From contig JACPYL010000027.1 of the NCBI GenBank assembly GCA_016196065.1, positions 186,001 to 250,000 of the forward strand: DNA of 64,000 nt, written 5' to 3'. Positions 24,445-27,400 of this stretch are shown here, one piece after another. How positions within the stretch are numbered: the first letter of the stretch is position 1; every line of letters begins with the position of its first letter. The position numbers and the translations under genes were made by a program. Under the pieces are notes generated by a model. That model ran no database searches. It saw only the letters and a program-made list of their open reading frames with translations, and was not told the DNA's origin. Source of the DNA: Acidobacteriota bacterium. GTDB lineage: Bacteria; Acidobacteriota; Terriglobia; Terriglobales; Acidobacteriaceae.

Positions 24445-27400
24445 ATGGCAAAGCATAACACCTTCCGCAAACGTTTTGATTTTTCAAAAATTCCGGCCAC
24501 CATCCAGATCCCGAACCTGATCGAGGTTCAGAAGCGATCGTATGAACGCTTCTTGCAGATGGACAAGCTGCCCAGCGAGCGCGAAGACGGCGGTCTCCAG
24601 GCTGTATTTCAGTCTGTGTTTCCAATCACCGACTTCCGCAATGTCTCGCAGCTCGAGTTCGTGGACTATGCGATCGGCAACTGGGAGTGCAAGTGCGGCC
24701 ACTTGAAAGGGCTGCATCACCTGCGCACCACTTGTAAGAATTGCGGATCCACCGTCATCACCGATCCGTTTCATCCGGGCGATGTGCTCTGCCACAAGTG
24801 CGGCACGTACAACGCGAACACGCCTGATTTTTGTAACAAGTGCGGCGACCCGGTTGGATTGCAGTTGAAGTACGACGTAGCGGAGTGTGAAGAGCGGGGC
24901 ATGACGTACTCCGCGCCGCTTAAAGTCACAATGCGCTTGACGATCTGGGACAAGGATCCCGAGACCGGCAACCGTTCGATTCGCGATATCAAGGAACAGG
25001 AAGTATTTTTCGGCGACGTTCCCCTGATGACGCAGAACGGCACGTTCATCATCAACGGCACCGAGCGCGTAATCGTCAGCCAGTTGCACCGCTCGCCGGG
25101 CGTGTTCTTCGAGACCGCCAACAACCGCACCTACTTCCTCGGCAAGATCATTCCGTACCGCGGATCGTGGGTTGAGTTTGAGTACGACCAGAAAAACGTG
25201 CTCTACGTTCGTATCGACCGTAAGCGCAAATTTCTGGGCACGATCTTCCTGCGCGCGTTGGGACTGCGGGCGGGCGAGGACATTCTGCGGACGTTCTACA
25301 CCGTTGATCGGCTGGCGGTCCGCGACAACAAGTTGTTCTGGACGCTTGATCCGACCAGCGACAAGGCGACGAACCTGCTGGGCATGAAGCTGGCGCACAG
25401 CGTCAAGTCGAAGTCCGGCGAAGAAGTGGCACATTCCGGCCGCAAGATCAGCGCCGCGATTCTCAAGGAAATTCAGAAAGCGAAGATCACTGAGATCGAA
25501 ATCGATACGACCGATCTTGAAGGCGCGTGGTCGGCCAGCGATATCGTCGACACGACGACGGGCGAAGTGCTGCTCGAAGCGAACTCGGAAATCACTGCTG
25601 ACAAGGTTGCCAAGATTCTGGAATCGGGCGGCGTTGTCGAGATGAGCGTGTTCTTCCCCGAGCGCGACGACGTGGGCACGGTCATCAGCCAGACGTTACG
25701 GCGCGATTCGGTCAAGACTCCTTCGGAAGCGCTGATCGAGATCTACCGCAAGCTGCGTCCGGGCGATCCGCCAACGCTGGATACGGCGACGGCATTGTTC
25801 CAGGGCATGTTCTTCGATCCGCGGAAGTATGACTTCTCGCGGGTGGGCCGCCTGAAGTTCAACATCAAGCTGTTCGAAAACCAGGAAGCAACCAGCCTGG
25901 AACAGCGGACGCTTGATCCGACGGATTTCTACGCGACCATCAAGTACCTGCTGAAGCTGCGCAAGAACATCGGCGCGGTGGACGACATCGATCACTTGGG
26001 TAATCGCCGTGTTCGCGCGGTTGGCGAACTGCTCGAGAACCAGTTCCGTATCGGCCTGGTCCGCATGGAACGGGCGATCAAGGAAAAGATGAGCGTGTAC
26101 CAGGAAATGTCGACGGCGATGCCGCACGACCTGGTCAATGCCAAGCCGGTGATGGCTGCGATCCGCGAATTTTTCGGATCGTCGCAGCTCTCCCAGTTCA
26201 TGGATCAGACGAACCCGCTGTCGGAAATCACGCACAAGCGGCGTCTGTCAGCCCTTGGGCCGGGCGGCTTGTCGCGCGAACGCGCTGGATTCGAAGTCCG
26301 CGACGTGCACCCGACGCACTATGGACGTATCTGTCCGATTGAAACGCCGGAAGGTCCGAACATTGGATTGATTTCGTCGCTCAGCTGTTTTGCGCGCATC
26401 AACGATTACGGATTCATCGAGTCGCCCTATCGCAAGATTAAGAACGCGCGGGTGGTCGACTACGTGACCGTCGTAAATGCGGGCGACGCTGACTTCAAGG
26501 TTGGCGATCATCTTGAAAAGAGCGAAATCGAAAAGATCAATGCCGACTTGAAGGAACGCCGCAAAAAGCCGGTCGAGATTGAGCCGTTCTCGTTCTACTT
26601 GTCCGCCTGGGAAGAAGATCGTCACACGATCGCGCAGGCGAACATTGAATTGGATGAGAAGGGCCGCATCGCTTCTGAGCTGGTCAACGCTCGTAAGGCG
26701 GGCAACTTCGTTCTCGTCAACCGCGAGGAAGTGGACTACGTCGACGTCAGCCCGAAGCAGTTGGTTTCGGTCGCTGCGTCACTCGTACCGTTCCTTGAAC
26801 ACGACGACGCGAACCGCGCGCTGATGGGCGCGAACATGCAGCGCCAATCCGTTCCTCTGCTCCGTGCACAGGCTCCGATTGTTGGAACCGGTATGGAAGG
26901 CGTGACGGCGCGCGATTCGGGCGCAGTCATCCTGGCCAAGCGTAACGGCATCATTGACTCAGTCGATTCCGAGCGCATCATTGTGCGCGTGGAAGGCGAG
27001 CATCATCCGATGCAGCTTTCGCGCGAAGTGGGCAGCGACATTTATCAGCTCACCAAGTTCAAGCGCTCGAACCAGAACACGTGTATCAACCAGAAGCCGA
27101 TCGTGAAAAAAGGCCAGCGCGTAGTGAAGGGACAAGTCATTGCGGACGGTCCCTGCACGGACTTCGGCGAGTTGGCGCTCGGACGCAACGTGCTCGTGGC
27201 ATTCATGCCGTGGCGCGGCTACAACTTCGAAGACGCGATCCTCGTTTCGGAAAAGATGGTGAAGGAGGATTACTACACCTCCGTCCACATCGAGGAATTC
27301 GAACTCGAAGCCCGCGATACGAAACTCGGTCCGGAAGAAGTCACGCGCGACATCCCGAACGTCAGCGAAACCACGCTGCGCAATCTGGATGAAGCGGGCG

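Follow-up and report, generated by a model that had tools for sequence, protein, structure and literature searches.

A nearly phylum-wide eight-cysteine insert in the RNA polymerase beta protrusion of Acidobacteriota probably forms a hairpin arm with two nested zinc sites

Domains inserted into the catalytic subunits of RNA polymerase are markers of deep bacterial lineages; their roles are mostly open. The zinc sites of the bacterial enzyme are not known to lie outside the beta' subunit, whose N-terminal zinc-binding domain has one zinc site. A 2024 survey of polymerase inserts places those of the beta subunit at five sites in uD2, uD3, uD4, and uD5, and the word zinc is absent from its main text (PMC11515920). 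Here, we describe a 62-residue, cysteine-rich insert in the beta protrusion, encoded by the rpoB gene of an Acidobacteriota bacterium within a 64,000-nucleotide window of contig JACPYL010000027.1 (positions 186,001 to 250,000). The insert would be an ancient Acidobacteriota arm on the protrusion, in which two Cys4 zinc sites, one nested within the other, hold a lengthened beta-hairpin. C82, C84, C130, and C133 would form an outer knuckle at the root of the hairpin, and C97, C100, C116, and C119 an inner ribbon nearer the tip. We regard this as the best explanation of the data presented below and as likely to be correct.

The features discussed here are located in Table 1. In the translated frame, the cysteines of the insert are residues 82, 84, 97, 100, 116, 119, 130, and 133, exactly where an earlier note on this DNA had put them. 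That note gave the span as 24682-24855, which corresponds to residues 80 to 137, and stated that it separates segments adjacent in the E. coli protein. Comparison with insert-less relatives widens the span to residues 79 to 140, and the flanks are indeed contiguous, both in insert-less members of the phylum (L031-L035 and L037, the last being genome G104) and in three outgroup RpoB sequences, from Kapabacteria, Cyanobacteria, and Solobacterium. A frame-shift or assembly artefact, which the note had named as a danger to its claim, is ruled out, because the frame is also open in the genome as a whole and the insert is found repeatedly in the phylum.

We picked 264 RpoB rows for alignment and dropped 30 that lacked the anchor motif, among them some eight-cysteine rows (e.g., L073, L077, L112, and L144) and one compact form (L218/L257), leaving 234. 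Row L207 ('--C-----') was discounted as a wrong frame, and several genes are present more than once (L216-L221 with L223-L228 and L255-L259, L213 with L260, and others). All eight cysteines are kept in 201 of these 234 rows, which are not all distinct genes, and of 167 distinct sequences with all eight cysteines, 163 have a 62-residue insert. Variable cysteines in close relatives would, according to the earlier note, speak against its claim; such variation is seen in a minority of relatives, although it follows an order. The pooled ratio of nonsynonymous to synonymous substitution rates (dN/dS) over 79 disjoint pairs is 0.145 for the insert and 0.061 for the flanks, so the insert is under purifying selection that is weaker than that on the flanks. 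Given this constraint and the number of rows that retain all eight cysteines, the insert is not a product of chance.

Table 1. Positions in the window of rpoB, its insert, the four cysteine pairs, and the similar domain in rpoC
Feature	Positions	Strand	Remarks
rpoB, RNA polymerase beta subunit, 1488 aa	24445..28911	+	single open frame; Pfam Rpb2 domains
62-residue cysteine-rich insert in beta protrusion, RpoB residues 79-140	24679..24864	+	boundaries from insert-less relatives L031-L035, L037; modelled confidently by AlphaFold2
Cys82-x-Cys84, outer knuckle (putative), first half	24688..24696	+	one or both lost along with C130 in f33, G059, G240
Cys97-xx-Cys100, inner module (putative), first half	24733..24744	+	lost along with C116 and/or C119 in G370, G003, f87
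Cys116-xx-Cys119, inner module (putative), second half	24790..24801	+	
Cys130-xx-Cys133, outer knuckle (putative), second half	24832..24843	+	kept with C82/C84 in compact f87, G370, G003
beta' N-terminal zinc-binding domain (rpoC residues 66-91)	29323..29400	+	best other genome match of the insert's first half, E 5.6e-5

Which cysteines share a metal can be judged indirectly from the relatives that have lost some of them. In the f33 rows (L065, L214, L215, L246), cysteines 82, 84, and 130 are lost, while 97/100, 116/119, and 133 are kept. Genomes G059 (L058) and G240 (L238) have lost 82 and 130. Conversely, G370 (L213) has lost 97, 100, 116, and 119 and keeps 82/84 and 130/133 alone, G003 (L040) has lost 97, 100, and 119, and in f87 (G382, G388, G406) the whole 97-119 stretch is gone, which leaves a compact CxC...CxxC knuckle. 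Each of these six partial-loss events falls entirely within {82, 84, 130, 133} or {97, 100, 116, 119}. Among the 35 possible 4+4 splits, only the nested one fits all six events, whereas the split into consecutive halves fits none; if losses of equal sizes are drawn at random, some split accounts for the five events other than the deletion in 0.4% of cases. G003 and G240 are mutually nearest among the tree rows, yet the inner set was lost in one and the outer set in the other. Because the six events fit the nested split alone, the zinc sites are probably nested rather than two ribbons in a row. The lost first CxxC of the inner set in G003 reads H-S-P-H, with histidines near the former cysteine places, and a His-based site is possible there.

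The earlier note had instead implied a pairing of neighbors, as two sequential ribbons (C82/84/97/100 and C116/119/130/133). The note was right in describing an insert in the protrusion with eight cysteines and, very probably, two zincs, but the co-loss pattern contradicts the implied pairing. Sequential ribbons would account for the C-x-C-x12-C-x2-C spacing of the first four cysteines, which is that of the beta' zinc-binding domain, for the finding that, with a profile of the first part, beta' domains rank directly behind RpoB in the genome and head the PDB matches (the latter with weak E values of 0.009 to 0.016), and for the resemblance of the last four cysteines to a generic zinc ribbon. 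However, none of the six partial-loss events is compatible with this pairing, including those that leave only 82/84 with 130/133 (G370) or 97/100 and 116/119 plus 133 (f33), and the Foldseek matches of beta' to the insert model comprise 26 to 30 columns at a root mean square deviation of 9 to 10 Å. We consider sequential ribbons quite improbable. In the nested arrangement that we prefer, the metal would be zinc, with both sites filled, to judge from the sequence.

The structure prediction proposed in the earlier note models the insert confidently. In the AlphaFold2 model, the predicted local distance difference test score is 90 to 94 in blocks of ten, with a mean of 91.5 for the insert alone. 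Predicted strands at residues 78-81, 94-96, 103-105, 113-115, 122-124, and 138-141 are symmetric about the tip, an arrangement compatible with nesting. A RanBP2 finger aligns with the inner module at 1.3 Å over 28 residues; the structural neighbors listed for the insert model, which bear on whether it has the two antiparallel bracket-like elements of the BEAN domain, are all weak.

We searched genomes of the window's phylum that are at least 90% complete with a profile of the insert and obtained strong matches (E <= 1e-14, counted by hand) in 364 of 395; these matches were not all read one by one and also cover lineages whose outer site is eroded. The 31 genomes below threshold comprise 19 with no match to the RpoB N terminus, one (G224) whose contig ends before the site, and 11 that could be judged, namely seven insert-less or remnant genomes (G001, G017, G104, G125, G207, G305, G340), three compact forms (G382, G388, G406), and one eroded form (G370). 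By profile score, the insert is held at 364 of 375 judged sites, which answers the question raised in the earlier note of whether it is general in the phylum. The 19 genomes without an N-terminal match, such as G019 with a completeness of 100, were not scored as losses, and the missing N termini may be gaps in the assemblies. The 90% draw leaves out three insert-less genomes (G031, G044, G080) from a first sample, in which RpoB was matched in 143 of 149 genomes by alignments mostly spanning the insert.

Beyond this phylum, we scanned a collection of 85,000 species, as a sample rather than a census, with a pattern that required W-E and all eight cysteines. Among the 120 matches listed, 112 were the RpoB insert, each confirmed by its own RpoB flanks, and the other 8 were rpoC zinc domains of other organisms. 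By NCBI ranks, 99 of the 112 belong to Acidobacteriota, and the remaining 13, from Aminicenantes, are entered as Candidatus Aminicenantota or with no phylum stated. GTDB treats Acidobacteriota and Aminicenantes as one phylum, and both names are counted here as one; all 112 RpoB matches listed belong to it. With contiguous flanks where it is absent and confinement to one clade among the matches listed, the insert is a lineage-specific insertion of the RNA polymerase beta subunit. In three other sampled phyla, those of a Chloroflexi, a Flavobacteriales, and an Oscillospiraceae record, we found no RpoB insert with profile A4 at a cutoff of E 1e-6 (the same profile reaches E 1e-28 in carriers). 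The first gave a match in 1 of 121 genomes, an unrelated 177-aa open reading frame (ORF) with other CxxC pairs (L229, genome G526; E 5.8e-7). The second gave matches in 11 of 198 genomes, at profile positions 4 to 37 only; the six that we read are rpoC zinc domains, and the remaining five have the same span and a similar ORF size. The third gave none in 199. Likewise, the insert was not found in a solved beta chain: a PDB search listed 59 sequences at E <= 10, none of them a beta chain, three ambiguous labels having been judged by length and position.

We placed the gains and losses on an RpoB tree (FastTree, insert columns removed, three outgroups) that contains several long branches and is loose in its details. 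When the tree is rooted, the first branch inside the phylum (L046, L069) carries the insert and the losses are nested. The simplest reading, with counts read off the tree by eye, is that the insert was gained once, before the sampled radiation, and was afterwards lost or collapsed at least five times and partially lost six times. The insert is gone in f2, f29/g42, and f52, and remnants persist in f57/g87 and f43/g136. The short cysteine-free or near cysteine-free remnants of G207 (L258) and of G125, G340, and G305 (L038, L220, L221) are unlike each other and represent two independent ways of dismantling the insert. Members of the phylum range from the full arm through forms with only the outer or only the inner site to remnants and complete absence, a natural dissection series that makes the role of a polymerase insert directly testable by comparison.

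Such repeated independent loss and erosion, even in relatives of intact carriers (G370 and G014 share a genus, G207 and G077 a family), might indicate a structural spandrel, that is, an insert that is inherited and hard to remove cleanly but has no specific partner. The faster evolution of the insert relative to its flanks points the same way. Against a spandrel stand the dN/dS of 0.145, the 364 of 375 genomes that carry the insert as judged by profile score, and the strong retention of W80, K83, L87, G89, R94, V137, and L139 besides the cysteines; G78 is also among the well-conserved non-cysteine residues, and the net charge of the insert is approximately neutral on average. We think a spandrel unlikely.

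The most likely function, which we hold as possible rather than probable, is that of a contact arm. Stiffened by the zinc sites, a short arm would jut out from the protrusion, on the side of the polymerase where upstream DNA lies, and present a surface for contact with a lineage factor, sigma, or upstream DNA. It would tune transcription without being needed for catalysis, as suggested by the loss of the insert in several lineages. The protrusion can be regarded as a docking surface because Mfd binds there (PMC7864632).

One concrete form of the earlier note's suggestion that the insert could touch a regulator is that it would be a built-in partner of CarD or a substitute for it. CarD binds this beta domain, and a Mycobacterium beta1-beta2 domain structure (4kbj) is among the matches of the model. 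We searched 33 genomes for the CarD/Mfd domain, taking ORFs of approximately 190 to 370 aa as CarD-size. These were present in 9 of 10 insert-less or remnant genomes (G001, G017, G031, G044, G104, G125, G305, G340, and G207; not G080, which is 75% complete), whereas the insert carriers G027, G011, and G034 showed only an Mfd-size match. CarD presence does not track the insert in these 33 genomes, a dependence on CarD is not supported, and we rate this alternative as highly improbable.

The first part of the insert is similar to the beta' zinc-binding domain, with which it has its best match in the genome outside RpoB, and the insert may therefore be a copy from rpoC. When we searched the insert's own genome with a profile of its first 31 residues, RpoB ranked first and the beta' domain second (E 5.6e-5), with the next match at 0.48. 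The six best PDB matches of this profile, at the E values given above, are beta' or cyanobacterial gamma subunits, and an unrelated protein follows at 0.017; a profile of the second half finds generic ribbons. Conversely, a beta' profile scored a median of 19.7 bits on 172 distinct inserts (lowest 4.9), compared to a mean of 6.7 bits (standard deviation 3.9) for shuffles that keep the cysteines and the glycines following them, 0.7% of which reach the 19.7-bit median. The median was 25.9 bits for an outer-knuckle composite with the inner part removed, at a junction of our own choosing, 23.05 bits for the C1-C4 stretch, and 7.5 bits for the C5-C8 part.

One way to read these scores is that the outer knuckle is a copy of the beta' domain of neighboring rpoC, later split by an inserted inner ribbon. 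The motifs [DN]-W-E-C-x-C-G and CxxCG-x-x-V are common to the insert and the beta' domain, and among the matches listed from the 85,000 species, the pattern gave only the RpoB insert (112) and rpoC (8); the pattern starts with W-E-C-x-C and is therefore biased toward both. However, the stretch is only about 25 residues long and its signal is largely that of cysteines, the lowest insert scores 4.9 bits, and the compact natural forms score 20.5, 17.0, and 9.1 bits. Moreover, the best profile alignment, with the beta' pattern CxC-x12-CxxC, W-E, and CG, spans C1-C4, and co-loss puts C1, C2 and C3, C4 in different sites. Copying from rpoC is plausible, though unproven; the split outer knuckle in particular we hold to be possible but short of an even chance. 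A fuller scenario, in which a copy made before the radiation and split by a nested ribbon would form a second arm on the other jaw, work with the beta' domain on upstream DNA or sigma, and later be dismantled site by site, is more doubtful. In rpoC of several lineages (L041, L048, L067, L073, L077, and others), tyrosine replaces the tryptophan before the first zinc cysteine, while the beta insert keeps the tryptophan; the two zinc domains therefore evolve independently.

We found no account of zinc at this place of RpoB in the open-licence literature; an older catalogue of bacterial inserts may already include this one, though not its zinc chemistry. The insert would add two probable zincs to bacterial RNA polymerase, and it is carried by nearly the whole of a major soil phylum that has been little studied.

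Like BEAN and other RNA polymerase beta inserts, this one is a clade-specific domain within a conserved subunit; it differs from those in the survey in being cysteine-rich and lying in the protrusion. Protrusion and lobe correspond to uD1 and uD2 in our reading of the survey (PMC11515920). The BEAN domain (CATH 3.90.105.10) is inserted in uD2/uD3, whereas the present insert occupies residues 79 to 140 and the lobe residues 216 to 513, the span matched by lobe structure 3lti; Rpb2_2 sits within Rpb2_1. On this reading, the insert does not have the position of a BEAN domain. The double zinc ribbon family PF12773 resembles the insert in having four CxC/CxxC pairs in approximately 50 residues, and the isolated insert matches it at E 5e-5, but with 23.8 bits in isolation and 15.9 bits in the whole protein it falls below the curated cutoff of 27.3 and is not a member. 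The ribbons of that family lie in a row, whereas the pairs of the insert appear to be nested. The beta' zinc-binding domain shares the W-E-C-x-C-G start, the CxxCG end, and the gene cluster; however, it lacks the nested inner ribbon and sits in beta' rather than in the beta protrusion. The nested plan recalls methionyl-tRNA synthetase (MetRS), a different protein to which the structural match is weak. The first knuckle of the insert is CxC rather than CxxC, and no MetRS appears among the 60 of 192 PDB matches listed for the insert profile. The zinc knuckles of the MetRS connective peptide (PMC8216282) nevertheless follow the same nested two-zinc order that the co-loss of cysteines suggests for the insert.
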